Part shown: positions 2,473 through 61,543 of the stretch, piece after piece
How positions within the stretch are numbered: the stretch's first letter is position 1
How the letters are laid out: every line of letters begins with the position of its first letter
Assembly (NCBI RefSeq): GCF_964212655.1
Contig: NZ_OZ156465.1
Coordinates: forward strand, 4,588,001-4,652,000
Direction of reading: 5' to 3'
DNA from: Candidatus Thiodiazotropha sp. LNASS1
Lineage (GTDB): Bacteria; Pseudomonadota; Gammaproteobacteria; Chromatiales; Chromatiaceae
Length of the DNA: 64,000 bases
The notes under the pieces: model-generated
What the model saw: only the letters and a program-made list of their open reading frames with translations
Told to the model about the DNA's origin: nothing
The model's database searches: none
Made by a program: the position numbers and the translations under genes

Positions 2473-2499
2473 GGGCCGATTGGATGAGTGTTAACAGGC
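2473..2499. repeat. Repeat family A, solo end (copy A1)
   Basis: A 27-bp sequence GGGCCGATTGGATG followed by AGTGTTAACAGGC lies in the divergent glgB/glgC spacer. Near-identical copies occur at 31687-31712, 40356-40383 and 58428-58455. This copy has CTAG immediately on both sides (2470-2473 overlapping its first G, and 2501-2504), as if inserted at CTAG. No partner inverted end is visible nearby, so it looks like a single end of the larger element seen at 31506-31712. Confidence 0.75.
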
Positions 2500-2564
2500 G
2501 CTAGCTACTCACGAGTAGGATTTGCAGTAATTTTTGGCCAGCTTTGGCAATGGAGGAGTGATCG

Positions 2565-3830
2565 ATGACTGAACAGAGTCCGCGTTTCGTCAGCCGGCTG
2601 ACTCGCAATACGCTTGCCCTGATACTGGCGGGTGGACGCGGTTCCCGACTCAAGCACCTGACTAAATGGCGTTCGAAGCCTGCGGTACCCTTCGGAGGGA
2701 AGTTCAGGATCGTCGATTTCCCCCTCTCCAACTGTATCAATTCCGGTATTCGCCAGGTGGGGGTACTGACGCAATACAAAGCCCATTCACTGTTGTTGCA
2801 TATTCAGCGTGGTTGGGGCTTTCTGCGGGGTGAATTTGGTGAATTCGTGGAATTGCTCCCGGCCCAGCAGCGCATTGAAAGCAGCTGGTACGAGGGTACG
2901 GCTGATGCGGTCTACCAAAATCTGGACATCCTCCGCAGCCACAACCCGGACTATGTATTGGTCCTGGCGGGAGACCACATCTATAAAATGGATTATGGCA
3001 CCATGATCGCCGAACATGTGGAATCCGGCGCCGATATGACCGTTGGCTGCCTCACGGTCGATCTGGAGAGTGCCAAAGAGTTTGGTGTGATGACGGTGGA
3101 TAGTGACGGATGGGTGGTCGATTTCCATGAGAAACCCGCCAATCCGAAGCCGATTCCAGGTAAGGAGAATGAGGCTCTGGCCTCGATGGGAATCTATGTG
3201 TTTAACCGTAAGTTCTTGTTTGAACAGTTGATAAAAGATGCGGATACGCCCAACTCATCCCACGATTTCGGCAAGGACATCATACCCAAAGTGATCGAGA
3301 AATACCGTGTGATGGCCTATCGTTTCAGAGATGCCACCAGCGGTAAGCAGGCCTACTGGCGGGATGTGGGTACGATTGATGCGTTCTGGACGGCCAATCT
3401 GGAGCTGATTGGCGTTACACCCCCCCTCAATCTCTATGACCGGAGTTGGCCGATCTGGACCTATCAGGAGCAGTTACCGCCCGCAAAGTTTGTTTTTGAT
3501 GACGATGAGCGTAGAGGCATGGCGGTTGATTCCATGGTTTCCGGCGGATGTGTCATATCGGGCGCCAAAGTAACGAACTCACTGCTTTTTTCCAATGTGC
3601 GTGTCAATTCCTACAGTGAAGTGAATGAAACCGTTGTTTTGCCGGATGTTAACATCGGACGCAACTGCCGTATCAGCAAAGCGGTGATTGATCGTGGTTG
3701 TGATATACCGGAGGGCACGGTCATCGGTGAGGACCCGGACCTGGATGCGGAACGCTTTTATGTCAGTGAAAAGGGTGTCGTATTGGTGACGCCGGAAATG
3801 TTAGGCCAGGTAATCCACCATGTCAGATGA
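2565..3830 (+). CDS. glgC: Glucose-1-phosphate adenylyltransferase
   Basis: ADP-glucose pyrophosphorylase converts glucose-1-phosphate and ATP to ADP-glucose, the committed step of bacterial glycogen synthesis. The 421-aa protein has the N-terminal nucleotidyltransferase signature [15 protein letters not shown] with SKPAVPFGG, the substrate region GTADAVYQN, the [11 protein letters not shown] motif and a C-terminal left-handed beta-helix domain ([20 protein letters not shown]). The start at 2565 has an excellent ribosome site, GGAGGAG at 2552-2558. It is the first gene of a three-gene run with the GH57 enzyme (11-bp overlap) and malQ. No glgA is in the window, so glycogen synthase must be encoded elsewhere. 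Confidence 0.96.
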
Positions 3831-5535
3831 TTTAGAGCCGGACAACCGCTTGCAGGTTGTCTTATGCTGGCACATGCATCAGCCCTACTATAAGGGGCCG
3901 GATGATAGTGAGTACCTGTTACCCTGGGTCTATCTGCACGGCATCAAAGACTACTCTGATATGGTGGCCCATCTGGAGCACACGCCGGATGCCAAGGCGG
4001 TGGTGAATTTTGCCCCTGTCTTGTTGGAACAGATCGATGACTATGCTACCCAGATCAAGGCCTGGCTGAATAAAGGTACTTTGATTCGCGATCCGTTACT
4101 GGCGGCGCTCGCCGGACCGGGACTTCCGGTGGATACGGTATCCCGCAAGGCAATTATTTCCGCCTGTCTCAAGGCCAATGAAAACCGCCTCATCAGCCGT
4201 TTCAAGCATTTCAGTGAATTGGCGGCGCTGGCCAAGCATGCATTGGAAAACGAGGCCATGATTGCCTATTTCAATGATCAATATCTGGTCGATCTTTTGA
4301 TCTGGTACCATCTGTCCTGGGTCGGCGAATGCCAGCGGATGAACGATATTCGGGTACGGTCCTTGCAGGCAAAGGGGCATGGTTTCGACCAGGACGACCG
4401 GCGTCGTATGATCGAGTTGATCTGGGAGATTTTGAGCAATCTCACCCAGCGTTACGCAAAACTGGCGGATCAGGGCCAGGTAGAGCTTTCGGTAACACCC
4501 TACGCCCACCCGATCATTCCCCTGCTGACAGATATAAATGCCGCCAAAGAGGCCTTGCCGACTATTGCCATGCCTGGGTTGGAGGAGTATCCAGGTGGTG
4601 AATCCCGGGCCCGTTGGCATATGCGTAAAGGCATCGAGGTATTCGAGAAGCATTTCGGCTTTAAGCCTAAAGGGTGTTGGCCTTCAGAGGGTGGAGTCAG
4701 TGAGGCGACCCTGAAGATGCTGGAGGAGGAGGGCTTTGAATGGGCGGCCACCGGCCAACAGGTTTTGAGTAACAGCCTGATGGCCGGAGGCGGCGATATG
4801 CCCCTTCCCGATAATTGGGTGCATTCGGCCTACTGTGTCCAGGAAGGCCATCTGAATATGTTCTTTCGGGACGATGGCCTCTCCGATCTGATCGGATTCA
4901 CCTACGGTGAGTGGCATTCCGACGACGCGGTGGGGGATTTGATAAACCATCTTGTAAATATCGCCGATGCCTGTCAGGACAATCCTGATGCCGTGGTCTC
5001 GATAATCATGGACGGGGAGAATGCCTGGGAATACTACCCCTACAATGGATGCTACTTTCTACGGGCCATGTACGAACGTCTGTCACAACATCCCCGGTTA
5101 TCTCTAACCACATTCTCTGAGGTACTGGATCGTCAACAGCAGCCGCCTCCCAGACTCTCGAAACTGGTGGCGGGCAGTTGGGTTTACGGCACCTTCACTA
5201 CCTGGATCGGCGACAAGGACAAGAATCGCGCCTGGGATCTGCTGGGGGATGCGAAGAAGGTATATGATCGCGTGTTGGCGCAGAATGAATTCAGCAAGCG
5301 AAAGTTGGCGGAGTTGGAAAAACAGTTAGCGATCTGTGAGGGGTCTGATTGGTTCTGGTGGTTTGGAGACTATAATCCAGGTGAAACCGTCAGCGATTTC
5401 GAACAGCTGTTTCGCAGCCAGCTTTCCTACCTTTTCGACCTGCTGGGAGAACCCAAACCCGACTATCTATCTCAAGTCTTTGCCGTAGGAAGTGGTAATC
5501 CATCCCTGGGTGGGGTAATGAAGAAAAATGATTGA
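3820..5535 (+). CDS. Glycoside hydrolase family 57 (alpha-amylase/glucanotransferase type)
   Basis: A 571-aa GH57 enzyme, expected to act on alpha-glucans. Family motifs are HMHQP at residues 18-22, [10 protein letters not shown] (the Glu of SEGG is the expected nucleophile), [10 protein letters not shown], and [13 protein letters not shown] (the Asp is the expected acid/base). A helical C-terminal part follows. The start overlaps the end of glgC by 11 bp and the end is 17 bp before malQ, so it is very likely co-transcribed and part of glycogen metabolism. Whether it hydrolyses, transfers or branches glucan cannot be read from sequence. Because glgB is also present, a debranching or transferase role is as likely as branching. 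Confidence 0.9.
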
Positions 5536-5552
5536 AGTGATGAGATACGTGA

Positions 5553-7049
5553 ATGAATAATGTTGCCGAAGAAAATTTTCGGCCAGTCCATCAGATTTTG
5601 ACCCGTCGCCGGGCAGGCATTCTTTTACATATCACATCCCTTCCCGGACCGGGTGTGGTTGGGGATCTGGGCAGAGATGCCTATCATTTCGTCGATTTCC
5701 TGGTCTCCTCGGGAGTGAGCGTCTGGCAAATTCTGCCGATCGGGCCCACCATGCATGACAATTCACCCTATCAGAGCAGCTCCGTCTATGCCGGCAATCC
5801 CCGCCTGATAAGTCTGGAGCTGCCACTGCAAAAGGGTTGGCTTGAAGCTATACCCGAAAGCGAGGATGTACTCTCCGACGCAGTGAAAAGCTATGCCATA
5901 AAACTGGCTTGGGAAGGGTTTAAGGAGCGCGCCGATAAGGGTGACAGGGACGATTACCAACGCTTTGTAGCAGAGCAGAAGCATTGGCTTGAGGATTATG
6001 TCCTGTTCCAGGCATTGCACCAGGAAGAGGGGGGCTGTTGGTGGGAATGGCATACCACCCTGAGGGACAGGGAACCACAGGCGATTGCAGAGTCAAGAGC
6101 ACGCTTCACAGAGACCATTGACGTTATTCGTTTTGAACAATATCTGTTTTTTACCGAGTGGATGAATCTGAAGCACTATGCCAATGAGCGTGGGGTACTG
6201 CTATTTGGCGATCTGCCCATCTTCGTGGCTCATGATAGTGCTGAAGTGTGGGCCCATCGCGAGTTCTTTGATCTGCTCGAGGATGGTCATCCCAGGGTGG
6301 TTGCCGGTGTGCCTCCCGACTATTTTTCCGATACCGGGCAGCGCTGGGGTAATCCGCTTTATTGCTGGGAAAGGCTGGAAGCGGATGATTTTTCGTTCTG
6401 GATCGAACGTCTCAGGGCTCAGTCAACCCTGTTCGATTTTTTGCGTATCGATCATTTTCGGGGATTTGAAGCCTATTGGGAGATACCGGCAGAGGAAAAG
6501 ACGGCGGTCAATGGCAGGTGGGTGGAGGCTCCCGGTGAAAGATTGTTCGAACAACTCTATACAGATCTGCCGGATCTGGAGCTGGTGGCAGAGGATCTGG
6601 GCGTGATCACACCGGAGGTGGATGCGTTGCGCAAGGCCTATCATCTGCCCGGCATGAAGATCCTGCAGTTTGCTTTTTCCGGGGGAGCGGATAACCCCTA
6701 CCTCCCGTTCCACCACACCCGCGACTCGGTGGTCTATACCGGAACCCACGACAATGACACCACCCTGGGCTGGTATAGGGGGCTTGATGACGGAACCCGC
6801 GAGTTTGTCGATGACTATCTGGGCAAGCCGCGTGAGGCCATGCCATGGCCTCTGATTCGTGCTGCCCTGTCTTCCAGGGCAAATCTGGCGGTAATCCCTT
6901 TCCAGGATGTGCTGGGTCTTGATGGGGCTCACCGGATGAACACTCCGGGCACCACTGAGGGCAATTGGGATTGGAGATTCGATTGGGAACAGATTAAGCA
7001 CGGCACTGCCGAGCGCCTGTTACGTTCGATCAAGATGTACGGCAGATAA
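5553..7049 (+). CDS. malQ: 4-alpha-glucanotransferase (amylomaltase)
   Basis: MalQ transfers alpha-1,4 glucan segments between maltodextrins (GH77) and recycles the oligosaccharides left by glycogen breakdown. At 498 aa it has the usual length of the short bacterial form. Signatures: RRAGILLHITSLPGP near the N terminus, DNSPYQSSSVYAGNP, LRIDHFRGFEAYW (nucleophile Asp), ELVAEDLG (acid Glu) and YTGTHDNDTT (third carboxylate). It is the last gene of the glgC-GH57-malQ run; the spacer to the upstream gene is only 17 bp. The sequence after its stop contains no terminator on the plus strand that I can see. Confidence 0.95.
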   Translation: MNNVAEENFRPVHQILTRRRAGILLHITSLPGPGVVGDLGRDAYHFVDFLVSSGVSVWQILPIGPTMHDNSPYQSSSVYAGNPRLISLELPLQKGWLEAIPESEDVLSDAVKSYAIKLAWEGFKERADKGDRDDYQRFVAEQKHWLEDYVLFQALHQEEGGCWWEWHTTLRDREPQAIAESRARFTETIDVIRFEQYLFFTEWMNLKHYANERGVLLFGDLPIFVAHDSAEVWAHREFFDLLEDGHPRVVAGVPPDYFSDTGQRWGNPLYCWERLEADDFSFWIERLRAQSTLFDFLRIDHFRGFEAYWEIPAEEKTAVNGRWVEAPGERLFEQLYTDLPDLELVAEDLGVITPEVDALRKAYHLPGMKILQFAFSGGADNPYLPFHHTRDSVVYTGTHDNDTTLGWYRGLDDGTREFVDDYLGKPREAMPWPLIRAALSSRANLAVIPFQDVLGLDGAHRMNTPGTTEGNWDWRFDWEQIKHGTAERLLRSIKMYGR

Positions 7050-7126
7050 CGGTCAATGAGTGATGTATTATCAACACGACATATTTGGTCGCCACGTTAA
7101 TATCATGAGTTGAGAGGGCGATCGCG

Positions 7127-7160
7127 AAAAAAAAACCACTCCGACACCAGGCCGAAGTGG
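7127..7160 (-). terminator. Rho-independent terminator, minus strand
   Basis: Read on the minus strand, CCACTTCG and CGGAGTGG form an imperfect stem (7136-7160) followed directly by nine T residues (A-run 7127-7135 on the plus strand). The orientation fits the short minus-strand gene at 7321-7443, about 160 bp upstream, or antisense transcription toward malQ. Confidence 0.7.
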
Positions 7161-7320
7161 CTATACCAAAGGAGGATGGAGGAGATAAGCCGCCGTCACA
7201 ATGCAGTTTCGGCTGACTTGGCACTATTTCACCATCCACAGACTTTTCTTTCATTGAGAAAAATCAATCCAATCATAATGTAACAATTTGCATAACCGAT
7301 TGGATTGGATTCAACAGCCC

Positions 7321-7443
7321 TTAATCTTCTTCGCTGGGATCCTCCGCGGATGAGGACTTGTGACTGCCGCCGGCGAGAAAGAGTGCGGCGACGCCCAGTG
7401 CGAGGAGGATGATCAATGAGATGGCTATCAGGATATTACTCAT
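7321..7443 (-). CDS. 40-aa single-pass membrane peptide
   Basis: A complete small reading frame from ATG (7441-7443) to TAA (7321-7323). The peptide begins MSNILIAISLIILLALGVAA, a strong transmembrane segment (residues 4-24), and ends with a hydrophilic acidic tail SSSAEDPSEED. The composition of a clean hydrophobic stretch, then Gly-Gly, then an acidic tail is unlikely by chance. A terminator on the same strand lies at 7127-7160. It is divergent from purL. I do not recognise a family; it is too short for standard gene callers. The function is unknown and no clear ribosome site is visible beyond AAGAGAG about 10 nt upstream. Confidence 0.6.
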   Translation of the reverse strand: MSNILIAISLIILLALGVAALFLAGGSHKSSSAEDPSEED

Positions 7444-7517
7444 GGATTACGGTGCTCTCTTAATTGGTGTTTTTCGAGTATCATTGTGCTTTTTCCGACC
7501 TGCAGGATAAAGGCCCA

Positions 7518-11405: not shown

Positions 11406-11509
11406 AGGCACTGCAGCGAGCAGTATCCAGTATGTTTTGTTAACGGTGATTGGCACTCATTTACGGCCTCTGTTTCGCTACCCGATCGGGGTGTGAACCA
11501 AACCGGTTT

Positions 11510-31323: not shown

Positions 31324-31505
31324 TTTCTGTCTTGACTCCTGCATTATGTGATTCTGAGCGCTCGTTATACTTTGATGAGGATCTTTAGCCTTGTTTAAAA
31401 GGTCAGACATCATATCAGGAATTACTGGCTGGAACCTGTTAACAGCCCATGAACGATAGTACTCTGGACGCAACTTTCATCAATCGGTGACAATAGTGAC
31501 TGAGA

Positions 31506-31712
31506 GCCTGTTAACACACATCCAATTGGCTCAGTTGCCCCTGTAAAAGCGCCAATCAAGGTGCGAGGAGAGAGGTTTGGTGATTCCAACTGAACGACGA
31601 GCAACGCCGAGTGGCACTATTGTTCGCATATGCAGAATAACTACCCATCGCTCACGCTGCCTTGCCGGACAAAAAAGTCCCGGCAGGGCCGATTGGATGA
31701 GTGTTAACAGGC
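31506..31712. mobile_element. MITE-like element with terminal inverted repeats (family A, copy A2)
   Basis: The left end GCCTGTTAACACACATCC followed by AATTGGC (31506-31530) is the inverted copy of the right end GCCGATTGGATG followed by AGTGTTAACAGGC (31688-31712), matching at 23 of 25 positions. The roughly 207-bp element has no coding frame of note. Its right half (31621-31712) is closely similar to 58361-58455. It sits between ppx and the NUDIX gene, ending 13 bp before that gene's ATG, so the gene's leader is partly element-derived. No transposase is nearby, so it would depend on a trans-acting enzyme. A further half palindrome CCTGTTAACAG lies at 31436-31446. Confidence 0.7.
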
Positions 31713-31725
31713 CTTAGGATTTGAA

Positions 31726-32363: not shown

Positions 32364-32389
32364 GTAGCCGGATGGGTGTTAACAGGACC
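32364..32389. repeat. Repeat family A, degenerate solo end (copy A3)
   Basis: GTAGCCGGATGGGTG followed by TTAACAGGACC matches the family A end but lacks the four bases ATTG after GCCG. It lies between the NUDIX gene and the NYN gene and touches the stop codon of the latter (CTA 32389-32391, TAG on the minus strand). Confidence 0.6.
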
Positions 32390-33228
32390 TAGAGTCCCGT
32401 GCCGCCATAGCTTGGTACCAGGCGTACATTATTGGCCACGTAGCCGTCATCCTTATCACTCTTTTGGATATAGAATTCGAGTATGGAGTCCCGATTTGAC
32501 ATTACTTCATCCGTGACTTCGTCAGCCAGTTCATTGGCGTGGCAAAAGACACTCTCGTAAGGAGAGCCATCCTGGCGGGGATCGATAATCCACATATTAG
32601 GATCGATACGTTTGAGAAAACGTAAAAAGCCATAACCCTTTTCCGGAAACCACTTCGCACAGACCCCTCGGACACAGGAACCCGGTTCTCCCCAATCATT
32701 GCGCGGTTCATATGAGATCGGCAACAGATCGGGGATCAGAAAACCCGAATAGTAATCGTCTACAAGTCTGCGCAATTCCTGCGAAACATTGCGGAACCCG
32801 AGCAATTCAACCCGACAGCCGCGATCCTGCAGGGCGGTCACGACCTGCAGAAAATCGCCGTCACCTGTGACGAGAAGCAACAGGTCGAGTTTCTCCGATT
32901 GCAACATGGCATCAACGGCCATATCCAGATCTGCATTGGCTTTGGTGGTGACGTTACCCTCTTCATCCGTATAGCGGCGGACATTCTTCACAATGACTTT
33001 CCAGCCGTACTCTCTGACCATTTGCTGATAGGTCATGGCACGACGACGATACTCGGGATCCTCCTTGGCGCGTTCCTGGTCGAAGGCTATGTAGGTATTG
33101 AGCCTGAGAAGGGATCCGCCATATCGCGCTGCGAACATCCTCAGGATGTCGTAGCGCAGCTGGTATCCGCCGTTATATCTGACATTTTCTGCGTCGACAA
33201 ATACGCCAATTTTAATATCTTGATGCAA
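32389..33228 (-). CDS. NYN (PIN-like) domain protein with C-terminal cold-shock-like domain
   Basis: The N-terminal 165 residues are a NYN/LabA-type domain with the acidic site residues IGVFVDAENVRYN, KANADLDMAVDAML and LLVTGDGDFLQVV, suggesting an RNA nuclease. The C-terminal part (residues about 185-279) reads VCAKWFPEKGYGFLRF, ESVFCHANEL and LEFYIQKSDKDDGYVANNV, the pattern of an RNA-binding cold-shock beta-barrel. Together this suggests a structured-RNA nuclease; the fusion reading is inference. The start appears to be TTG 33228 with AGGT nine bases upstream; no in-frame ATG precedes the domain. It stands alone, with repeat A3 against its stop. Confidence 0.82.
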   Translation of the reverse strand: MHQDIKIGVFVDAENVRYNGGYQLRYDILRMFAARYGGSLLRLNTYIAFDQERAKEDPEYRRRAMTYQQMVREYGWKVIVKNVRRYTDEEGNVTTKANADLDMAVDAMLQSEKLDLLLLVTGDGDFLQVVTALQDRGCRVELLGFRNVSQELRRLVDDYYSGFLIPDLLPISYEPRNDWGEPGSCVRGVCAKWFPEKGYGFLRFLKRIDPNMWIIDPRQDGSPYESVFCHANELADEVTDEVMSNRDSILEFYIQKSDKDDGYVANNVRLVPSYGGTGL

Positions 33229-37466: not shown

Positions 37467-37568
37467 AAAAAATATCCTGATTGCCCACAATACTCAGCCA
37501 CTGTATAGGTGACTTGGTGATCGTGGGTTGTATAAGCAAACCGCGAATAGTCGCGAATGATTTTTCTG

Positions 37569-37740
37569 TCCGCAAATGAACGCGAATGAACGCAAATATA
37601 TTTATTTACTGTACAACAGGATGTAACACAGACTCTAACCTACCGCGAGGGAGAGGTAGGGTGAGAGCGGATAGCTGACAATGGTGGGTAACCAGGAAAA
37701 ATATTAAAGCTATTTGCGTTTATTCGCGTTCATTTGCGGA
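37569..37740. repeat. Repeat family B element with 30-bp inverted arms (copy B1)
   Basis: The left arm TCCGCAAATGAACGC followed by GAATGAACGCAAATA (37569-37598) and the right arm (37711-37740) are inverted copies with one mismatch in 30. A further related sequence CCGCGAATAGTCGCGAATGA precedes the left arm at 37541-37560. The 112-bp core has no coding frame and is unlike the cores of the other B copies. The element fills most of the spacer between gnd and the membrane protein gene at 37789. Confidence 0.75.
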
Positions 37741-37788
37741 CTTTACTTTTTAAATAAAGTGCCTGCCACACAAAAAGATTGCCTTGCG

Positions 37789-39162: not shown

Positions 39163-40356
39163 ATGAAAGACATCTTTGTTACACGCACTGTACGCATACC
39201 CGATCCGCTCCGCATCAGCCGTTATCAAAAAAGCCCTGAACTCGGACCAAGGATACTCTTCTTCAGCGGTGGCAGCGCCCTCAATGACGTTAGCCGGGTC
39301 TTGAAAGGCTACACCCATAATTCAATACATCTGGTAACCCCATTCGACTCCGGCGGCAGTTCCGCCAAACTACGTCAGGCATTCGACATGCCCTCTATTG
39401 GAGATTTGCGCAGTCGACTCGTTGCATTGGCGGATGAAACAGTGACCGGACATCCGGAGGTCTATGAACTACTGATCTACCGTTTTCCCCTTAAGGCAGA
39501 GAAGGGTGAGCTGCTACATCAGCTCGAGTCAATGATCAGAGGCAGACACCCGCTGGTGGAACCGGTAAACAATCCCATCAGGCGTATCATCCGCTATCAG
39601 TTGGGTTATTTCTATGACGCCATGCCGGCAAAGTTCGATCTGCGTGGAGCCAGCATCGGTAATCTGATTCTCAGTGGCGGTTATCTCAATAACCATGAAC
39701 ATCTCGATCCGATCATCTTTCTGTTCGAAAAGCTGTTGGGGGTTCAGGGACTGGTGCGTGCGGTCGTAAATGATAAATTCCATCTCACGGCAGAGTTGGA
39801 AGATGGCAGTCGTATAGTCGGTCAACATCTGCTGACCGGCAAGGAGGTTTCGCCCCTTGAGAGTCCGGTGAAAGAGATCTCTCTCTCCAGACGCTTGGAT
39901 AAATACACACCGGTGAAATCGCAATTACGCAAAAAAAACCATAAGCTGATACAAAAAGCGGAGTTGATTGTCTATCCCCCCGGCAGTTTTTACACCAGTC
40001 TGGTGGCCAATCTACTGCCTCAAGGTGTCGGGGCCTCGATAGCGGAAAATGATTGCCCTAAGGTCTACGTACCAAATCTGGGTGCAGATCCGGAACAGCT
40101 GGGTATGAATCTGAACGATGCGGTGCGGCGGTTGATGCACTATTTGCGTAAAAATTTGTCGGGTAATGCCGCAAAAGGAAGGCAATTGAATTTCATACTC
40201 CTCGACAGTAGAAATGGGCAATACCCATCGAAACTCTCTGCCAAGCTTGTCGAGGAACTTGATATTCAGGTAATCGATACAACGCTTATCAGTAGACGCA
40301 GCGCACCCTACTACGATTCGAAACTGCTGGTCTCGGCCCTGCTCTCCCTTACCTAG
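39163..40356 (+). CDS. CofD/UPF0052-like protein (GAK-system type)
   Basis: A 397-aa protein of the CofD/YvcK fold, which binds a phosphorylated ligand or transfers a phospholactyl-type group. Family signs: RILFFSGGSALNDVSRVL at the N terminus, LVTPFDSGGSSAKLRQAF, GDLRSRLVALAD, DLRGASIGNLILSGGY and VYPPGSFYTSLVANLLP. The N terminus IFVTRTVRIPDPLRISRY resembles the CofD-like member of the uncharacterised three-gene GAK system. Its expected partners (an ATP-grasp enzyme and an XXXCH-type protein) are not adjacent, so it is an orphan here. The stop TAG (40354-40356) is formed at the junction with a family A repeat. Confidence 0.8.
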   Translation: MKDIFVTRTVRIPDPLRISRYQKSPELGPRILFFSGGSALNDVSRVLKGYTHNSIHLVTPFDSGGSSAKLRQAFDMPSIGDLRSRLVALADETVTGHPEVYELLIYRFPLKAEKGELLHQLESMIRGRHPLVEPVNNPIRRIIRYQLGYFYDAMPAKFDLRGASIGNLILSGGYLNNHEHLDPIIFLFEKLLGVQGLVRAVVNDKFHLTAELEDGSRIVGQHLLTGKEVSPLESPVKEISLSRRLDKYTPVKSQLRKKNHKLIQKAELIVYPPGSFYTSLVANLLPQGVGASIAENDCPKVYVPNLGADPEQLGMNLNDAVRRLMHYLRKNLSGNAAKGRQLNFILLDSRNGQYPSKLSAKLVEELDIQVIDTTLISRRSAPYYDSKLLVSALLSLT

Positions 40357-40383
40357 GGCCGATTGGATGAGTGTTAACAGGCC
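40356..40383. repeat. Repeat family A, solo end (copy A4)
   Basis: GGGCCGATTGGATG followed by AGTGTTAACAGGCC is identical over 26 bases to copy A1. Its first base is the last base of the TAG stop codon of the CofD-like gene, in the context CCTAGGGCC. Confidence 0.75.
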
Positions 40384-40838
40384 CCAGGGTCCAGCATTTG
40401 GATAGCCGATTGTTTGCGGATAATAAGAAATGGCCGCAAATGAACGCCAATCATGAAAAATTTACGCAAATTACCAATTGGTCGAATGTAGGATGAATGA
40501 TAACCAAAGAATTAACTTCATGGGTGTAGTTAACCGTGTAAATGCCTTCTGAGTAAGCCGGGTCTGTCCAGATAGGGCATACTTGCCGGGTGCGTTATTG
40601 TAAAATACCGATTATCCCTTTATTTTAAATGGCTTATGCAATTCGGCTGAGCACCGGACATAAGTGTAATGTCTATCTAGACTGCAGGGGTCTGCAAACC
40701 GGTATACAGTGTATATACTATTGGGATATTCTCGCTGAACATAGTATCCAGCGACGATCCGTTAGTGAATGGGGACACCCTTACCAATCACACACTTGCC
40801 ATATTTGGTAAAGCATCAATGATGCCAGCAGGTTTTTC
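40357..40838. other. 482-bp spacer before desA with solo repeats
   Basis: The stretch holds a solo family A end (40356-40383) and a solo family B arm (40433-40470, GCCGCAAATGAACGC, then CAATCATG and TTTACGCAAA). The rest is A/T-rich. A 60-codon frame at 40629-40811 has no recognisable features and I do not call it. The desA promoter must lie in the right part, but no strong hexamers were seen. Confidence 0.5.
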
Positions 40839-50922: not shown

Positions 50923-50927
50923 ACCGA

Positions 50928-51457: not shown

Positions 51458-51493
51458 TTGATCTAAATCAGTTTTTTTATTGATCTGGGTCAA
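51458..51493 (-). promoter_or_regulatory. Two FNR/ANR-type boxes upstream of the oxidase operon
   Basis: TTGATCTAAATCAG (51458-51471) and TTGATCTGGGTCAA (51480-51493) each match the FNR-family consensus TTGAT-N4-ATCAA at 9 of 10 positions. Their centres are 22 bp apart, two helical turns, so two dimers would bind one face of the DNA. They lie 51 and 73 bp upstream of the DUF2244 start codon (51407, minus strand). Known FNR/ANR proteins often repress aerobic oxidases from such sites; the sign of control here is inferred. Confidence 0.65.
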
Positions 51494-51727
51494 AAGAATA
51501 TGACAAAGACGGGGCATAAAGCAATAACTAAGTCAATTTCTCGACTATTTATAAGATACTGATAATTAATTAGAATTATAGAATATAGCGATTTTATTAC
51601 GTGCTATCCCTGAATGCGTGTCTATTCGGATCCTCAGTAAGTATCCATTGATCAAGCCCAGTTATATATATGTCTATGAAAAGCTGGAATCCCTGCCGGC
51701 AACAGGCGGTTCAGGCTTTAGGGCCTG
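51494..51727. other. Gene-free A/T-rich stretch
   Basis: The rest of the spacer between the oxidase operon promoter region and the FmdE-like gene is A/T-rich and holds no gene. At its left border with the gene at 51728 is a compact family A palindrome (51722-51738). Confidence 0.5.
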
Positions 51728-51738
51728 TTAACAGGACC
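51722..51738. repeat. Repeat family A, palindromic end (copy A5)
   Basis: GGCCTGTTAACAGGACC contains the perfect 12-bp palindrome CCTGTTAACAGG and is flanked by TAG on the left and CTA on the right. It forms the last codons and the TAA stop of the FmdE-like gene. Confidence 0.6.
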
Positions 51739-52258
51739 TAATAAGCCGTGCATCCGGAAAGGCCTGCTCGAGATCAAGGGACCAGATCTTCTCCGTCATG
51801 GCCTTTTTGAGTGATTCCAGGTGCTCATAGTGATGCTCGTTTGCCTCATTCCGGTTGATGATGTCGAGCAGCTGAAGAAACTCGGATGAGACTATGCCGT
51901 CTGCCAGTCTCAGCGTTAGATACTGCTTGCCGTCGTTTACCCGCCAGCTGTAGTCCATATCACTTACACAACGGGTCTCGCCGGTAGTGCAGGTCAGTTG
52001 AAAACGTCCAGCGGATACGCAACCGGTGACATATTCGATCGTATCTTTCACGCCGGGCCCGGGATGTCCGCTTTCGATGGTGAGATCCTGCCACTCCCAG
52101 GTCTTCTCCCGGGAGAGCAGTTGTGCCGCGTATTGCAACATTCTAAAGGCAAGTGCGCAGCCCCAGTAGGCATTACCCCTGTGGAACTTAAGCGCCTCCT
52201 CGAAACTGCGCGTCAGTAGCACACCATTATCGATGATATGAATGTCAGTGGTTTTCAT
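51728..52258 (-). CDS. FmdE-like protein
   Basis: A soluble protein of 176 aa from ATG 52258 (MKTTDIHIIDNGVLLTRSFE); the frame extends to 52300 but the shorter start is better placed. The segment HRGNAYWGCALAFRMLQYAA and the later GPGVKDTIEYVTGCVSAGRF match the layout of FmdE-type domains (related to formylmethanofuran dehydrogenase subunit E), where a His/Cys pair binds metal. In this protein the usual HGH motif is altered to HRGN. The C terminus IRSC and the stop come from repeat A5, so the natural end may have been changed by the insertion. It is a lone gene. Confidence 0.55.
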   Translation of the reverse strand: MKTTDIHIIDNGVLLTRSFEEALKFHRGNAYWGCALAFRMLQYAAQLLSREKTWEWQDLTIESGHPGPGVKDTIEYVTGCVSAGRFQLTCTTGETRCVSDMDYSWRVNDGKQYLTLRLADGIVSSEFLQLLDIINRNEANEHHYEHLESLKKAMTEKIWSLDLEQAFPDARLIRSC

Positions 52259-52421
52259 CACCGTCCGCACCTCAGTCGGATTTATTATAATTGAAAACAT
52301 GTGATTTTGAGTGCATGAGCATTGTGCAAGTGAGTCGGCAGATTTTATCGTGGACTGCCGGTTGTGCCGCGTAACGTAGCATTAGCGTATTTACGTCACA
52401 TCGGATGTTGAGTTTAGCGGG

Positions 52422-53201: not shown

Positions 53202-53340
53202 TGGAATTGACATTTCAATCTGACTTCGAATCATCATGGTCTCCACATCCTTTCTCTTGCTGGTAGAGACGGAGAGAATGATAATTCGCAATTCTGTTGA
53301 AAAGAAAATCCGGATGGAAGAGAGGGCAGAGGACCAGATA

Positions 53341-53374
53341 CTCTGTCTTGGCAGGTTTACCAAGACAGAGTTTT
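53341..53374 (+). terminator. Rho-independent terminator behind the ATPase relic
   Basis: CTCTGTCTTGG (53341-53351) and CCAAGACAGAG (53360-53370) form a perfect 11-bp stem with an 8-nt loop, followed by TTTT. It points along the plus strand, so it probably ended the former ATPase transcript. It may also act on the minus strand for the histone-like gene, though no T-run follows there. Confidence 0.75.
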
Positions 53375-53401
53375 AACGGTAACTACCTAAGAGCCGGTAG
53401 T

Positions 53402-53893: not shown

Positions 53894-54234
53894 TGGTACT
53901 CCTTAGTGATTGAACAAACATGCACAATATAGTTGCACTTTAGTATAAGAACAACTCTTAAAGCTTTAATTATGTATAAAATTACTATTTTTTTTACTTT
54001 TTATCTCAATTTTATGCGATTTAATGGAAATGCAGAGGCAAGTTAAAAACTTTTAGACATGCTATAAGTTTGAGATGACACTGCAGTTAGAACAGTAAAT
54101 CGTTTGATTTTGTATTTTCTTTAGAAAAAGTTTAAGTGAACTTTACCCCGATGGATTCAAATACCGGATTATTTTGTTTTATTGTAAACCTCTTCCATAG
54201 AATGCAGCTATACTGGCCAAAAAAGGCTTGATCC
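53894..54234. promoter_or_regulatory. A/T-rich divergent promoter region
   Basis: The 341-bp spacer separates the histone-like gene (minus) and the SLC13 transporter (plus). It is very A/T-rich with several T tracts, consistent with promoters for both, but I see no strong hexamer pair and no gene. Confidence 0.4.
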
Positions 54235-56064: not shown

Positions 56065-56083
56065 GACATACCAATCCTACTCG

Positions 56084-56674
56084 CTAATTCCGGGGTGAAT
56101 AGCGATAATGGCCGGTAATCGGATAGTCAAATAGCATATCCTCCAGCTTTGGGCCTGAACCGATGTTGTGGATGATGAGAGGCGACCTTGTCCGTTGATC
56201 GATCTTATCGCTGACAATACCGATATGAGGCAGGTTGCCAGGCAGCATCCAGGTAACTATTTCACCGGGTTTGTAGTCACTCCCATGGTGGGTTACGGGC
56301 AGGCTTTTTCCCTGACGTGTGAAAAAACGTTGTAGATTCGGCACACGCCGATGATCGATGTTTTTGTCGGTTTGTGTCAGGCCCCATATCCGCCGTGATG
56401 GGTAGAGATCAAAATGAGATGCCATATCCTCATGAACCAGCTGTTGTAGATCAACACCTAGTACACGATAAGAACGGATCAAAACATCGGTACAGACACC
56501 AATATTGTTCGGTATATCGCCATTAGGATATGCAATTGGTATGTAAGAGCCGTCGTATCTGACAGTATGTTTAGTGCGTTCCATTGCCGCAGCTACGAGT
56601 CTAACCTCGAACTGTCCCGCCAGGCAGTAGACAGGCAACTGTAGCAATATTACGGTAAATAGTCTTCTCAGCAT
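56084..56674 (-). CDS. DUF1287 exported protein
   Basis: A 196-aa protein with a short signal peptide (MLRRLFTVILLQLPVYCLAG). The mature part has the DUF1287 pattern: AAAMERTKHTVRYDGSYIPI, PNNIGVCTDVLIRSYR, GVDLQQLVHEDM, DHRRVPNLQRFFTRQGKSLP and HIGIVSDKI. The motif VCTDV together with a later His (LPHIGIVSD) resembles an NlpC/P60-like cysteine site, so a peptidoglycan-related activity is possible, but it is not established. It is convergent with the transporter gene, 20 bp apart. Confidence 0.85.
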   Translation of the reverse strand: MLRRLFTVILLQLPVYCLAGQFEVRLVAAAMERTKHTVRYDGSYIPIAYPNGDIPNNIGVCTDVLIRSYRVLGVDLQQLVHEDMASHFDLYPSRRIWGLTQTDKNIDHRRVPNLQRFFTRQGKSLPVTHHGSDYKPGEIVTWMLPGNLPHIGIVSDKIDQRTRSPLIIHNIGSGPKLEDMLFDYPITGHYRYSPRN

Positions 56675-56700
56675 GAAGTTAAGGATATCAAATAGCCTGT

Positions 56701-56901
56701 TTAAGGCACACTATTTATCGATCCTGTATTCACTATGGATGATGACTGACCAAACCGCTTAATCACAAGGTTGTTACATTCAGGAAAGGCCTGTTCAGCG
56801 ACGAGATGAATCGATTTGTTCAGTTCAGGGTAGGCAGGAGCCGAATCACACGATTGCGAACGAACCCAAACAGGTTGCGCCATTGCAGAAGCACTTTGCA
56901 T
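56701..56901 (-). CDS. Possible small secreted protein or remnant
   Basis: A 66-aa frame from ATG 56901. The start MQSASAMAQPVWVRSQSCDS looks like the end of a signal peptide, and the frame continues upstream past the ATG as SLFSDAAISASMQ, so the true start may be at a non-ATG codon near 56940 or the gene may be damaged. No family is recognised. The DUF1287 gene is 27 bp away on the same strand. Confidence 0.3.
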   Translation of the reverse strand: MQSASAMAQPVWVRSQSCDSAPAYPELNKSIHLVAEQAFPECNNLVIKRFGQSSSIVNTGSINSVP

Positions 56902-56974
56902 GGATGCCGATATGGCTGCATCGGAAAACAGACTGACATGAATCCGCCTGTAACCCGATGGATTGGGAAGATAG

Positions 56975-57223
56975 CTATTTCTTGATCAGTCCAACGATAA
57001 ACAGCAATATTGCAGCACCTGCAACCGCAGTAATCAATGATCCGATCAGCCCGTTAACAGAAAGTCCAAGGAGTCCGAAAACCCAACCACCGATAAATGC
57101 CCCAATCACGCCAACAATAATATTGCCGAGCAGACCGAAACCGCCGCCTTTCATAATGGTGCCTGCCAGCCAACCCGCAACCGCACCGATTGCCAGAAAA
57201 ATTAACAGAGAAGTTAAATCCAT
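56975..57223 (-). CDS. GlsB/YeaQ/YmgE family membrane protein
   Basis: An 82-aa protein with three hydrophobic helices in the Gly-rich pattern of the transglycosylase-associated / general stress family: LLIFLAIGAVAGWLAGTIMK, GGGFGLLGNIIVGVIGAFIG, then the last helix and GLIKK. The start ATG 57223 has a perfect ribosome site (AAAGGAG). These small proteins respond to envelope or acid stress in other bacteria; the molecular role is unclear. It stands alone. Confidence 0.93.
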   Translation of the reverse strand: MDLTSLLIFLAIGAVAGWLAGTIMKGGGFGLLGNIIVGVIGAFIGGWVFGLLGLSVNGLIGSLITAVAGAAILLFIVGLIKK

Positions 57224-57566
57224 TATGGGCTCCTTTTATAAAAAAATTGTGTTTGGCCAAGTCAGTCGCTTTACATTACGCGCCAGTCACGTTTGTTTTT
57301 TATAGTAAATTCATACACCGTTGCTCGCAGCCGATTCAACCAGAACAGGCAACAGGCAAATGAAAATCAGTACGTCTAAACCCAGTCAACTAGGATCGCA
57401 AACATATTTCTGTAACGCATGTTATTGTTGAAACAACTAACGATTGCATACATGAAAAGCGCAAAACACTTAGCTGGTTAACGCATGCAAGGAGTCTAGC
57501 AAGTAAGGATGCTGTCAAGTAGATGTGAAATGATAACTATTGTGAAAACAGGGGTAATTTCATCCG
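57224..57566. other. 343-bp spacer without a gene
   Basis: The stretch between the GlsB-like gene and the end of the Gly-rich gene contains A/T-rich DNA that should include the promoter of the GlsB-like gene. No repeat, RNA gene or reading frame of note was found. Confidence 0.4.
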
Positions 57567-58279
57567 TTACCCACTACAACCACCGCAACCGGCACAACCG
57601 CCACAACCACTACCGCCACTACCTGAGTTTCTTCCCCCTCCGGAGCCAAGCCATTTCAAGACTCGATAGAGGATGTAGATACCAAATACCAGCTTCAGCC
57701 AAAACCAGATATCGGTATCGGAAAGGTCATCGCTGCAAGAGATGAGAAAAAAGGGCAGTGAGGCAATGAGTGCGATGTTGGTGACAAGCGGAGAAGGTCT
57801 GGGTATGAGTAACCGTCTTTCAGTATTGACCCGAACGAACGATTCGACAGCATCGAAGCGTCTGTCGACCGATGGCCAGATATCATCGGGTGGTGGTTCT
57901 TTGAATGTGACTTGATACAGCTCTAGTGTGTATTGATATTGATCTCTGAATCTCTGAATCTCTGCTGCTCTGCGATACCTCCTTTGGTCGGTAGATGATG
58001 TAACTCGACGCCGAGTATCTCTTTACATAGGATATTCCAATAGGATTCGGTATACATCAGATGGAGATGCCAGGCCTGATCGACCTGATCGGATGGGGTG
58101 ACTTCGCTTTTCGAGATGGCAGCCAGATAGATGAATCGTCTGTATTCCGCGATAACCCTTTCCGAATACCTGATAGACCAGTCATTTTCCCGTGACAGGC
58201 GCTTACAAAAGCTCAGTGAGGCTTCACCGTCGTCGATTTGAAATGATTCAATATTATCCCAAAGTTGAGTTTCAACCAT
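57567..58279 (-). pseudogene. TIGR04222-like Gly-rich membrane protein, frameshifted by an 8-bp duplication
   Basis: The first part (58279 to about 57960) encodes the family N terminus: LWDNIESFQIDDGEASLSFC, WSIRYSERVIAEYRRFIYLA, TPSDQVDQAWHLHLMYTESY and GVELHHLPTKGGIAEQQRF. It then stops at 57923. A second frame continues in the same gene: YQYTLELYQVTFKEPPPDDI, WPSVDRRFDAVESF, a membrane helix (LVTNIALIASLPFFLISC), another (IWFWLKLVFGIYILYRVLKW) and a Gly/Cys tail ending GCGGCAGCGGCSG at TAA 57567-57569. The junction lies in CTCTGAAT repeated twice (57944-57959). Removing one copy restores a continuous protein of about 235 aa. It could be a real mutation, a phase-variable switch or a sequencing error. 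Confidence 0.8.
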
Positions 58280-58360
58280 AGATCGTTCTCATTTTCACAA
58301 GATGATTAGTATTGACAGGTCCTTGTAATAAGGTCTTTTTTTCCGTCCAGCTGCGTTATC

Positions 58361-58455
58361 ATTCGCTCATGTAGAACAACTACACATCACTCATTCTGCC
58401 TTGCCGGACAAAAAAATAGACCCAGCAGGGCCGATTGGATTAGTGTTAACAGGCC
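58361..58455. mobile_element. Partial family A element (copy A6)
   Basis: This stretch aligns with the right half of the MITE-like element at 31621-31713, including TGCCTTGCCGGACAAAAAA, and ends with the right inverted end GGGCCGATTGGATTAG, then TGTTAACAGGCC. The left inverted end is absent. It lies upstream of the DUF924 gene. Confidence 0.7.
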
Positions 58456-58540
58456 CATAGCTTATAGCTCTCTTTAAGTCGGCCTTGGCCCTATAGTTAC
58501 TTGACCAGCGGGGAATCGTCAAATCCGTTAGTGCATTGAG

Positions 58541-59092
58541 ATGAGCGACAAAGAAGTAAACGAGATCATCGAATTTTGGTTTTCCGGCCGGGTTGAACCG
58601 CTGCGCTTCAATTCAACAGCGGAATTCGATCTGGAGATCAGGGATCGCTATTTGAGACTCTGGCACCGAGGGCGTAAGGGCGAGTTGGATCATTGGAAAG
58701 AAACAAAAGAGGGTTGCCTTGCATTGGTCATCCTTCTCGATCAATTTCCCTTGAATATGTTTCGTCACCAGTCTGAAGCCTTTTCCACGGAACAGCAGTC
58801 CCGTGACGTGGCCGGTTTTGCCATCGATGCCGGATTCGACAAACAGATGCCTGGTGAATGGCAGGCTTTTCTCTACCTGCCGTTCATGCACAGCGAGTCC
58901 CTCACCGATCAGGATAGATCGATTTCACTGTTCGAATCAGCGGGCTTGCATGAGAATCTCAAATGGGCCGAACACCATCGAGCGCTGATAAGGCGATTCG
59001 GCCGCTTTCCCCACAGAAATGAGATATTGGACCGTGAGAGCACAACAGACGAGCTGGCCTATCTGAATTCAAATCAAGCGTTTACCGGATAG
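58541..59092 (+). CDS. DUF924 family protein
   Basis: A 183-aa soluble helical protein. It has the conserved DUF924 pattern EIIEFWFSG near the start, ALVILLDQFPLNMFRHQSEA in the middle, FLYLPFMHSESLTDQDRSI, and RFGRFPHRNEILDRESTTDE near the end. The family is very common in proteobacteria and has no settled function. The start ATG 58541 follows a family A remnant by about 85 bp; a family B element lies behind the stop. Confidence 0.9.
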   Translation: MSDKEVNEIIEFWFSGRVEPLRFNSTAEFDLEIRDRYLRLWHRGRKGELDHWKETKEGCLALVILLDQFPLNMFRHQSEAFSTEQQSRDVAGFAIDAGFDKQMPGEWQAFLYLPFMHSESLTDQDRSISLFESAGLHENLKWAEHHRALIRRFGRFPHRNEILDRESTTDELAYLNSNQAFTG

Positions 59093-59121
59093 CGTGTTGT
59101 CGGATATGGAAAAAAATATTT

Positions 59122-59337
59122 AGCCGCGAATGGACGCTAATCACCGCAAATTTACGCAAAAGATATTTCAATCGCTTGATTCGCCATAAAAATAACCGTT
59201 CAACCCTCCGCACTTATCAGGCATGCACTAGGCTGTTTAGGCCAAAGGAATTGATTTCGATTGATCACGTTTAATCAGCCACGAAATCCCCATCCTTGTT
59301 TGCCAATATTTACGGTGATTAGTGCCCATTCACGGCT
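59122..59337. repeat. Repeat family B element (copy B3)
   Basis: Left arm AGCCGCGAATGGACGC followed by TAATCACCGCAAAT (59122-59153) and an inverted right arm (59305-59337) match with about four mismatches in 30. The core is unrelated to the cores of the other copies. It fills the spacer between the DUF924 gene and the end of the EF-G gene. Confidence 0.7.
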
Positions 59338-59367
59338 TGTTATTTCCCGCCATTGCCAAGTCAGTAG

Positions 59368-61440
59368 CTAGCGCCCCAGAGATTTCATAATTGTTGCCGG
59401 CACTGCTGCGAAATGGTCGATCTCCATGGTGAACGAACCGCGGCCGTGGGTTGCGGAGCGCAGTTCCGTCGCGTAGCCGAACATCTCGGAAAGGGGTACC
59501 TGGTTACGAATCGCCTTGATCTGGCCCGGCCGGTCAGAGACACCGTCGATCTCGGCGCGCCGATTGGCCAATTGCGCCAGCACATCGCCCAGGTGTTCTT
59601 CGGGGGTGATCACCTCACATCGAACAATCGGCTCGAGCAATACCGGCACGCCTTTCTCCAGGCCGCTGCGCAGTGCCATGCCTGCCGCTATTTGGTAGGC
59701 CATAGGATTGGAGTCCACGCTGTGTTCGGAACCGTCTGTCAGGGCTACTTTGATGTCGGTAACGGGATAACCGCCGATGACCCCGCTCCGGGCCGCCTCA
59801 CGGATGCCGCTCTCCACTGCCGGGATATAAGCGGCGGGAATTGCGCCACCGCTGATCCGGTTTTCAAATAGCAGCCCTGAACCCGTCACCCCCGGCGTTA
59901 TCTCGATGACCACATGGCCGTATTGTCCATGGCCTCCTGTCTGTCTGACAAAGCGGCCTTCGACCCCCGTAGCAGTTTGAGTGATGGTCTCTTTATAGGC
60001 CACCTTGGGATTGCCGGTGCGGACATTGACGCCTTGCTCGCGTTGCAGCCTGTCCAGCAGTACCTCCAGGTGAAGCTCGCCCATGCCGGAGAGGATCGTC
60101 TGTCCGGTCTCTTCATCGGTTTCGGCCTTGAAGGTCGGGTCATCTTCCGCAAGGTGGTGCAGGGCATCAGCCAGGCGTTCATTATCCTGCGCTGTAATCG
60201 GCGCCACCGTGATCTTGATGACAGGGTCGGGAAAACTGATCGATTCGAGCAACATTGGATGTTTTGGGTCGCAGAGAGTGTCGCCGGTGACTGCGTCCTT
60301 CATACCCAACAGGGCGGCAATGTCTCCGGCATGGATGACTTCGATATCTTCCCGATGCTCGGCATACATCCGTTCCAGTCGTCCAACCCGTTGGTTGCGC
60401 TTGTGGCGCGGGTTGAGCACCATGGCACCCGTTTGTAAACTGCCTGAGTAGACGCGGACATAGCAGAGACGCCCGGCATAGGGATCGGTGACGGTCTTGA
60501 ACAGGAGTGCACAGAGGGGGCTGCCATTACTCGGAGCGCGCATGATCGCTTCACCCTTCACCGGGTGAACGCCCTGGATTTCACCGATATCGAGGGGGGA
60601 AGGCAGATAGCGGATCAGTGCGTCGAGCAGAGGCTGAACGCCCCGGTTTCTCAGTGCACTGCCGCAAAGGACAGGCACGATTGCATTATCCAGCGTGGCG
60701 CGACGCAGGGCATCGTGGATCATCTCTTCATCGGCCTCACCGCCTTCCAACCAGATCGACAGCAGTGTGTCATCCTGTTCGGCTATTTGCTCGATCATCG
60801 TTGCACGGGCAGATTCCGCATCAGCTAGGTGTTGTGCCGGTATCTCTTCGTACTCCCTGTGTGCACCCAGTTCATCGTGCCAGCGGATGAGTTGCATGCT
60901 GATCAGGTCTATCACACCTTCGAAATCCGCTTCCACGCCCAGGGGTAGCTGCAGGGGGATCGGGTTGGCGCCAAGCTGCTCGCGAATGGTATTGACCGCA
61001 TGCTTGAAGTCGGCGCCGATGCGATCCATTTTATTGATAAAACAGAGGCGGGGAACGCGATAACGGTCCGCTTGCCGCCAAACCGTTTCGCTTTGAGGTT
61101 CCACGCCCTGGGAGGCATCAAACACCACCACAGCCCCATCCAGTACCCGCAAAGCCCGCTGCACCTCAGCGGTAAAGTCGATATGCCCGGGTGTATCGAT
61201 AAGGTTGATTTGATGATCATTCCAAAAGGCGGAGACGGCTGCATCCACAATGGTGATTCCACGCTCGCGCTCCTGATCCATCCAATCGGTGACGGTGGTG
61301 CCGCTGTCCACCGAGCCCAACTGATGGGTACGACCCGCATAATAGAGTATGCGTTCCGTAGTGGTGGTCTTGCCGGCGTCTATATGGGCGATCAAACCGA
61401 TATTGCGTAAACGCTCAATGGGGACAGCTTTGGCGGTCAT
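59368..61440 (-). CDS. fusA: Elongation factor G (stand-alone paralogue)
   Basis: EF-G is the GTPase that drives ribosomal translocation. The 690-aa protein has the G domain motifs AHIDAGKTTTTERI (P loop), ERERGITI, DTPGHIDF, NKMD and GSALRNRG, then domain II (GSLQTGAMVLNPRH), the domain III/IV region (GMGELHLEVLLDRLQ, QTGGHGQYGHVVIE) and a C-terminal domain V. The usual rpsL-rpsG-fusA-tuf context is absent; the gene is alone. It is bracketed by family B elements (59122-59337 and 61569-61780), suggesting a moved or duplicated copy. Whether it replaces or supplements the main EF-G needs the rest of the genome. Confidence 0.93.
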   Translation of the reverse strand: MTAKAVPIERLRNIGLIAHIDAGKTTTTERILYYAGRTHQLGSVDSGTTVTDWMDQERERGITIVDAAVSAFWNDHQINLIDTPGHIDFTAEVQRALRVLDGAVVVFDASQGVEPQSETVWRQADRYRVPRLCFINKMDRIGADFKHAVNTIREQLGANPIPLQLPLGVEADFEGVIDLISMQLIRWHDELGAHREYEEIPAQHLADAESARATMIEQIAEQDDTLLSIWLEGGEADEEMIHDALRRATLDNAIVPVLCGSALRNRGVQPLLDALIRYLPSPLDIGEIQGVHPVKGEAIMRAPSNGSPLCALLFKTVTDPYAGRLCYVRVYSGSLQTGAMVLNPRHKRNQRVGRLERMYAEHREDIEVIHAGDIAALLGMKDAVTGDTLCDPKHPMLLESISFPDPVIKITVAPITAQDNERLADALHHLAEDDPTFKAETDEETGQTILSGMGELHLEVLLDRLQREQGVNVRTGNPKVAYKETITQTATGVEGRFVRQTGGHGQYGHVVIEITPGVTGSGLLFENRISGGAIPAAYIPAVESGIREAARSGVIGGYPVTDIKVALTDGSEHSVDSNPMAYQIAAGMALRSGLEKGVPVLLEPIVRCEVITPEEHLGDVLAQLANRRAEIDGVSDRPGQIKAIRNQVPLSEMFGYATELRSATHGRGSFTMEIDHFAAVPATIMKSLGR

Positions 61441-61520
61441 AGGTTAGTGTCTTATTGTTGTATCAAAGTGGATTTCATCGAACACAACTCATTCTAGTCT
61501 ACCCGAGCGTGTTGCGGTAA

Positions 61521-61543
61521 TGGATGGGGGGGTTAACAGGGGC
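61521..61543. repeat. Degenerate family A end (copy A7)
   Basis: TGGATGGGGGGGTTAACAGG followed by GGC resembles the GGATGAGTGTTAACAGGCC end of the family with several changes. It lies just upstream of the EF-G gene and left of element B4. Confidence 0.4.

Follow-up and report, generated by a model that had tools for sequence, protein, structure and literature searches.

What kind of unit lies behind the short repeats scattered through a 64,000-nt stretch (the window) of the complete 4.75-Mb genome of Candidatus Thiodiazotropha sp. LNASS1 (hereafter the own genome), a member of a genus of lucinid clam symbionts? The initial annotation described at least seven copies of a 25-bp end, one of them a full element with inverted ends and the others solo or partial, three of them touching or supplying a stop codon, and took the pattern to suggest insertion at CTAG. 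All seven sequences are present, though those at 32364, 51722 and 61521 carry GTTAACAGG but not GGCCGATT. Their recurrence is far from accidental: TGTTAACAGG has 9 copies in the window where 0.03 would be expected, a count reached in 0 of 100 shuffles, and across the genome the 17-base end pattern GGATGNGTGTTAACAGG (≤3 mismatches) finds 228 matches, its reversed counterpart 9. The dispersed repeats look like one family of full-length, shrunken and scarred copies. Probably, the family is a non-autonomous element akin to a miniature inverted-repeat transposable element (MITE), moved in trans by transposases of the IS5 family of insertion sequences (ISs) and decaying to footprints.

The unit of the family is larger than the 25-bp end. 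A complete copy spans ~265 bp, GGG/CCC beyond the previously quoted ends included, and reads TA-GGGCCTGTTAACACT…, a 99-nt arm, a short centre, an inverted second arm and …AGTGTTAACAGGCCC-TA (in a longer reading of the ends, TA-GGGCCTGTTAACAC…GTGTTAACAGGCCC-TA). Among 45 distinct two-ended sequences of 60–400 bp, 14 measure 265 bp and 21 fall between 264 and 267 bp. As expected of a MITE, the element has terminal inverted repeats (~30-bp paired ends) and contains no transposase, its ~265 bp being filled by ends and arms. The typical arm of 99 nt combines a 21-bp stem and a 5-bp tip hairpin, with C(A/T)AGGC on one side and YAAC on the other. Folding with RNA parameters predicts exactly two long arms above an end-paired base in 29/45 sequences and no such junction in 10/45, including deleted or one-armed copies and three of 264–265 bp. 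The two inverted arms and paired ends can form a T-shaped fold (hence ‘T-element’), a prediction that the covariation described below supports. End types vary in arm-carrying loci: GGGCCTGTTAACACT with close variants, GGGGCTGTTCTCAA, GGCTCTGTTGACG, GGGCGTGTCGTCAT and GAGCCTATCCATGAA, in a survey where the ends of L364, L366 and L374 were not resolved; a copy on an Azotobacter plasmid has type GGGTCTGTTGACGTTT. Since these differing ends surround the same arms, one core occurs with several ends. Minor variants include a 27-bp insert of CACCCCAAGGGCACTTCCTTCGGGGCG type, in an arm or near the centre (L055–L058, and L106 versus L105), which differs between two genomes of one species; an element adjoining a degenerate end (L189); and a full element beside an 18-bp scar with one TA in common (own 3519900–3520187).

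The borders define the target. YTA/TAR borders flank 37 of the 45 distinct two-ended elements, and at exact 18-bp scar sites in species genomes Y precedes and R follows in 109/119, versus 14% for TA in the same loci. Because CTA or TTA left borders mix with TAG or TAA right borders, the duplicated target is TA within YTAR rather than the four-base CTAG proposed initially; the sites are CTAG-like, and the actual border is TA or a changed TA. C or T stands before TA in 43/44 borders of the own sequence used. YTAR includes the stops TAG and TAA. The over-representation of stop codons at borders was borne out: 10/44 borders coincide exactly with the end of a ≥100-codon open frame versus 116/2036 YTAR sites (Fisher p = 0.0002), where borders were called by pattern (≤2 mismatches), frames mechanically, and the control comprised YTAR sites of the window plus one 200-kb block, element sites included. 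Other frames run open across the border in 4/44 cases versus 23% of the control (p = 0.028). This pattern fits insertion at YTAR followed by loss of gene-breaking insertions.

Empty sites in close relatives demonstrate that these borders are footprints of insertion. We compared the own genome with its sister species, T. endolucinida (G009), over 0.2 Mb, over 19 kb of the window (the overlap with G009 contig C40) and over 0.4 Mb, and tallied sites by hand. Left out of the tally, as unclear, unpaired or probably no family members, were G009 C2:2958, 17536, 150252, 155694 and 157513; C1:70481; C3:2389, 20065, 29915, 68520, 76489, 79720, 224172, 225342 and 255467; own 3008470, 3011420, 3021817, 3025686, 3026598, 3510157, 3553920, 3594778, 3715581 and 1797496; and pattern matches in coding regions (e.g., own 2946109, 2984179 and 3027847). 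Filled sites with an empty partner comprise eight full copies (own 2887091, 1867664, 3519900 and 3640512; G009 C40:1976, C3:89075, 103017 and 159291), four of 29 bp (G009 C2:45672, C40:14763 and C3:60389; own 3652650) and four of 18 bp (own window 51719 and own beside 3519900; G009 C2:55628 and 74391). Duplication of TA, the target-site duplication that a MITE should show, is seen where the full copy at own 2887091 is set against the empty sister-species site, and at own 1867664, 3519900 and 3640512 and G009 C3:89075 and 159291, whose partners are empty; in three cases the empty site has an altered TA. REPIN/RAYT systems insert beside a tetranucleotide and duplicate nothing; here TA at both borders fits duplication, and an insert bringing its own TA would read alike. 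Copies differ in position between species, contrary to the fixed positions in relatives that the initial annotation had named as refuting its reading. It is hardly credible, accordingly, that the palindromes are non-mobile regulatory or terminator sites selected at gene ends: stop-codon positions are commoner than in control sites, as this explanation would have it, but presence and absence differ between close species with TA footprints, and the empty sites speak strongly against it.

At other loci both species carry a copy. Thirteen such loci are short in both (ten 29-bp-like, three 18-bp-like), four are longer in one species than in the other, and none is full in both. Full alleles account for 8/16 of the young class and 4/34 of the old class in this tally (Fisher p = 0.010). 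The four unequal loci are own 3064078, full in the own genome, lacking an inner 27 bp in another genome of its species (G056), reduced to an 18-bp scar in G009 and absent from G019, G020, G005 and G003 in the aligned rows shown; 2904875, with 360 versus 93 bp; G009 C1:43815, full against an own remnant of ~9 bp; and G009 C3:222871, 177 bp against an own remnant. A long form thus faces an 18-bp scar at one locus, 3064078. What had been called solo or partial copies mostly have the two outer ends intact and resemble complete insertions that lost their interior, as scars of internal deletion would. A route is suggested by the sequence of the ends: TGTTAACA is palindromic and is therefore repeated in direct as well as inverted orientation at the two ends; deletion between these repeats leaves 18 bp. 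The 29-bp scar fits microhomology at GGGCC, and the 37-bp Achromobacter scar fits GGGCCTGT. In 3/10 full copies, the left end shares a repeat of ≥4 bp with the inner part of the right end, giving predicted products of 29 bp for L003 (GGGCC) and L018 (GGGC) and of 37 bp for L340 from Achromobacter (GGGCCTGT); none is predicted for the remaining seven. The 37-bp form is seen in the Achromobacter singles L332 and L320 (one change), and others there differ. Another deletion form is a 42-bp palindrome (L053, own 2199987–2200024), consisting of two ends with no interior between TTA and TAA flanks.

These observations suggest the following course of events. The outer ~15 bp are IS ends of the IS5 family; a transposase of that family, acting in trans, would insert the element at YTAR and duplicate TA; and the insertions that survive would be intergenic or at a stop codon, TA followed by the first G of the element making TAG. 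The fold would bring short direct repeats together, and internal deletion between them would yield the 18-bp scar from TGTTAACA, the 29-bp scar from GGGCC and, in Achromobacter, the 37-bp scar from GGGCCTGT. We infer that such deletions arise by slippage, as in nearly precise excision. Alternatively, the 18- and 29-bp units could be mobile in themselves, placed directly at YTAR rather than left behind by long copies. Empty partner sites exist for short copies (29 bp at G009 C2:45672, C40:14763 and C3:60389; 18 bp at C2:74391), 18 of the 20 exact matches listed for Variovorax ISL-79 form nine 18-bp palindromes, and the age gradient is not significant when counted by locus. Direct placement is nevertheless unlikely, because a longer form faces a remnant at four loci and scar lengths track the repeats in full copies of the same genome (29 bp in Thiodiazotropha, 37 bp in Achromobacter).

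Which enzyme could move the element? Searching viral contigs with the end sequence turned up L399, an IS of ~815 bp bounded by TA-GGGCCTGTTAACACCAC…GTAGTGTTAACAAGCCC-TA. Its two frames match PF13340 (6.7e-20) and PF01609 (1.6e-8) and also, at 8.4e-23 and 5.9e-26, the ‘IS5 family transposase’ model NF033580, whose whole-protein cut-off neither fragment reaches. Among eight plasmid relatives, six have legible ends of the same kind bordered by CTAG or TAG (Polaromonas, C. oxalaticus, C. necator, Variovorax, Caballeronia and Paracoccus), and the ends of the other two (P. phymatum and Pediococcus ISLpl3) were not resolved. ISs of this NF033580 group, which we take to be the IS427-like subgroup, resemble the element in their ends, GGGC(C/G)TGTT(A/C)ACAC, and in TA borders mostly inside CTAG. 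They differ in coding for a transposase (PF13340 plus PF01609) within ~815–832 bp, whereas the element codes for none; unlike a member of the IS5 family, it lacks a DDE transposase, and only its ends are IS5-like. No arm-model match was found in L399. A second end type, carried on Azotobacter plasmids, is similar to ISPa67 at both of its ends and to a Paracoccus IS5 at one; for the latter, no second end was found. The IS5-like ISPa67 has CTAGGGTCTGTTGCCGTTT as its ends, which come near the CTAGGGTCTGTTGACGTTT end of the copy on the Azotobacter plasmid, but it differs from the element in its ~860 bp and its own transposase gene. Two element end types thus match those of autonomous IS5-family ISs, in L399 and on plasmids, as expected of a MITE, and these shared ends make movement by an IS5 transposase probable.

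Other candidate partners were considered. In the own genome, DDE_Tnp_1 has one match, L070, of the IS1182 family, and no matching end was found in the L070 stretch. A partner of the IS630/mariner type, guessed from the TA target, had no DDE_3 match in the own genome, where no other partner was found either; the ISs with matching ends are of the IS5 family. Three candidate pairs of repeat ends in the own genome that might have enclosed an autonomous copy held ordinary genes. Exact GGGCCTGTTAACA formed no transposase-sized pair in 12 other genomes among the matches listed, which came from 7/12. No gene recurs convincingly beside the elements in other genera, three other end types had no convincing inverted partner in viral contigs, and end types E and D led to no IS on plasmids, where B and C were not scanned. 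A homocitrate-synthase-like gene, considered as an anchor for locus comparison, has a close orthologue in three relatives only.

The own genome does hold Y1 transposases, with six Y1_Tnp matches, four of them intact and two further broken. One rival is a REPIN/BIME-like system in which a Y1 (RAYT) transposase of the host moves the repeats. REPINs and BIMEs with RAYT come as hairpins, both in inverted pairs and singly; the same arrangement here, the abundance across the genus and the six Y1 matches would all suit such a system. The element differs from REPINs and BIMEs in its TA borders, ~265-bp length and IS5-type ends, and the mixed YTA/TAR borders with TA on both sides, the symmetric ~30-bp ends and the recurrence of the end sequences in IS5-family ISs count against the idea. 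Moreover, the four intact Y1 stretches (L071–L074; own 462613, 960087, 1966754 and 2569526) are identical in DNA over 357 bases and score 2.9e-41 with the IS200/IS605 model versus 4.2e-10, below cut-off, with the REP-associated model. A RAYT-driven origin is very improbable. One of these IS200/IS605-family stretches adjoins a full T-element.

The arms, in turn, are conserved as structure. In a gap-free alignment of 15 arms from six genera, both sides change in 26/26 pairs, 96.7% of cells pair versus 61.4% after shuffling, and covariation reaches 0.920 versus 0.237 (0/500 shuffles), falling to 0.25–0.27 on a one-column slide; the arms were picked from 26 non-redundant ones, 9/15 are from Thiodiazotropha, one genus is represented by a Chromatiales metagenome-assembled genome, and the structure was defined after inspection of the 15 arms tested. 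C24, A26–C29, A70–C72 and G76 are invariant. In a wider set, stems are near-perfect: 23/27 arms have standard spacing, with 96.3% of stem cells paired versus 55.6% after shuffling partners (maximum 69.7%), and the remaining 4/27 have spacing one shorter and weaker pairing (12 to 16 of 20). The invariance of AAC and the AGGC-like motif in this set is partly built in, as the script required both; with the 3' motif left free, AAC(G/A) was still recovered in 22/26 arms. Long quasi-palindromes are corrected toward perfection by template switching, and the near-perfect stems are what such correction alone, acting without selection on structure, would produce. It should, however, erase unpaired motifs, and the invariant positions of the 15 arms make it a rather unlikely sole cause. 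Our preferred reading is that the element depends on its arms, folded as single-stranded DNA or RNA, in order to move or to persist. It is also possible, and we propose it tentatively, that what is conserved is the two-armed core itself. It would then be a selfish module defined by structure, resident in Gammaproteobacteria (including the former Betaproteobacteria), which would act as folded single-stranded DNA or RNA and borrow transposases through the ends of several IS5 subgroups.

Several observations weigh against a MITE-like element driven by IS5 transposases and decaying to footprints. The arms exceed what an IS5 enzyme should need. No cognate transposase was detected in the own complete genome, the only one of the genus covered, with PF01609 and PF13358 (PF13340 and NF033580 were not searched there), even though the element has moved since the split from the sister species, and no IS was seen with the longer GGGCCTGTTAACACTAATCC end. 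Counted by locus, the age gradient of full copies is 8/16 versus 4/17 (p = 0.157). Only three of the ten full copies hold microhomology for a product of ~29 or 37 bp, a 24-bp Pusillimonas single would need a repeat of only 2–3 bp, and no locus with a full copy against a 29-bp one was found in the comparisons made.

The family is widespread. A covariance model of the arm finds matches at E ≤ 0.001 in 88/369 sampled genomes of the class and 70/271 genera, in a scan with rough E-values, w/o shuffled control, of genomes drawn evenly from a larger group with at most 11 candidates per genome; both arms lie inverted, 7–11 nt apart, in 10/15 loci with an arm-model match. The end is present in 21/21 genomes of the genus (own included), 1/14 genomes of other genera of the family and 0/21 from other families. 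The 18-bp-scar class (≤3 mismatches) occurs in 22/22 genus genomes with a reversed control of 0, as does the 29-bp pattern (22/22), whose counts are mixed with ends of full copies. The exact 22-mer TAGGGCCTGTTAACAGGCCCTA is found in 116 stretches of GTDB species genomes versus ~0.015 by chance, mostly from Gammaproteobacteria or former Betaproteobacteria, with a single record each from Mariprofundaceae and Acidobacteriaceae. Whole-element searches gave no match in two plasmid scans and one phage scan, and a further plasmid search gave three partial matches. An Rfam scan of one full element returned four miRNA-model matches only (E 0.025–0.73), far below gathering scores. No description of the element was found among the titles and abstract openings listed from an open-access library, where the sequence ‘GGGCCTGTTAACA’ is found in 0 papers. 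T-elements also occur in the viral or prophage contigs L392, L394 and L396, a possible route of spread.

Other bacterial MITEs offer partial parallels. Correia elements, ERIC and MITEAba12 are short, lack a transposase gene and have inverted ends, and Correia elements and ERIC also target TA. All three differ from the element, whose interior is a covarying two-arm structure maintained across genera and end types. In nearly precise excision of Tn10 and Tn5, deletion between short repeats in the inverted ends leaves a small remnant, whereas here there are many scars per genome in many genera. The collapse of the element would provide many natural replicates of that process. Past insertions can be traced by searching for the 18-bp palindromic scar. 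A covarying two-hairpin core with differing transposon ends in 88/369 sampled genomes of the class would be a large mobile family, one in which selection on DNA secondary structure during bacterial transposition can be tested directly; if the selfish two-armed module is real, it would be a bacterial counterpart, in logic, to SINEs.

Within the window, the copies illustrate most of these forms. A 29-bp collapsed copy, GGGCCGATTGGATGAGTGTTAACAGGCGC, lies at 2473..2501 (+) between TA at 2471–2472 and 2502–2503; it is common to G056, and the aligned sites of G015, G019, G005 and G020 lack it. The sequence at 31506–31712, initially taken as the full element, is an internally deleted two-armed element of 211 bp at 31504..31714, also common to G056, with partial arm matches at 31545–31621 (+, 48.7 bits) and 31605–31671 (−, 21.2 bits) and a left TA decayed to GA. 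A degenerate collapsed copy occupies 32367..32389 (+) between TA at 32365–32366 and 32390–32391, and its right border is the TAG stop of a minus-strand NYN gene (PF01936); G015 and G020 have CTAG without the repeat at the aligned place. At 40356..40384 (+), in a 29-bp collapsed copy shared with G056 and G009, the right TA has changed to CA, and the left TA plus the first G forms the TAG stop of the CofD-like gene 39163–40356 (TIGR04357, ‘GAK system CofD-like protein’, 7.8e-160; PF01933), a TAG also present in G015, G020, G019 and G005, where no repeat is recognisable. The 18-bp scar GGGCCTGTTAACAGGACC at 51721..51738 stands between TA and TA, and the G009 site is empty; the scar provides the TAA stop of ORF 51728–52300 (minus strand), which ends RLIRSC-TAA here versus RFIRA-TGA at the sister species’ empty site. 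Of the three stop codons said to be touched or supplied by a repeat, those of the CofD-like and NYN genes exist without a recognisable repeat in relatives, and the third is supplied by it. Profile matches agree with the names CofD-like and NYN, but the third ORF, called FmdE-like, matched no Pfam or NCBIfam family at 0.001. A truncated one-armed copy with a right end lies at 58322..58456 (arm match 58328–58426, −, 78.8 bits), beside a degenerate further end at ~58303–58321. The copy at 61521–61543 is doubtful, a degenerate sequence at 61528..61543 (+) with the GTTAACAGG core only. A second dispersed repeat family, CCGCAAATGAACGCTAATCACCGCAAA and variants, occurs at 37567–37741, 40431–40470, 59121–59164 and 61568–61778, partly as inverted pairs, with similar sequence at the aligned sites of relatives.

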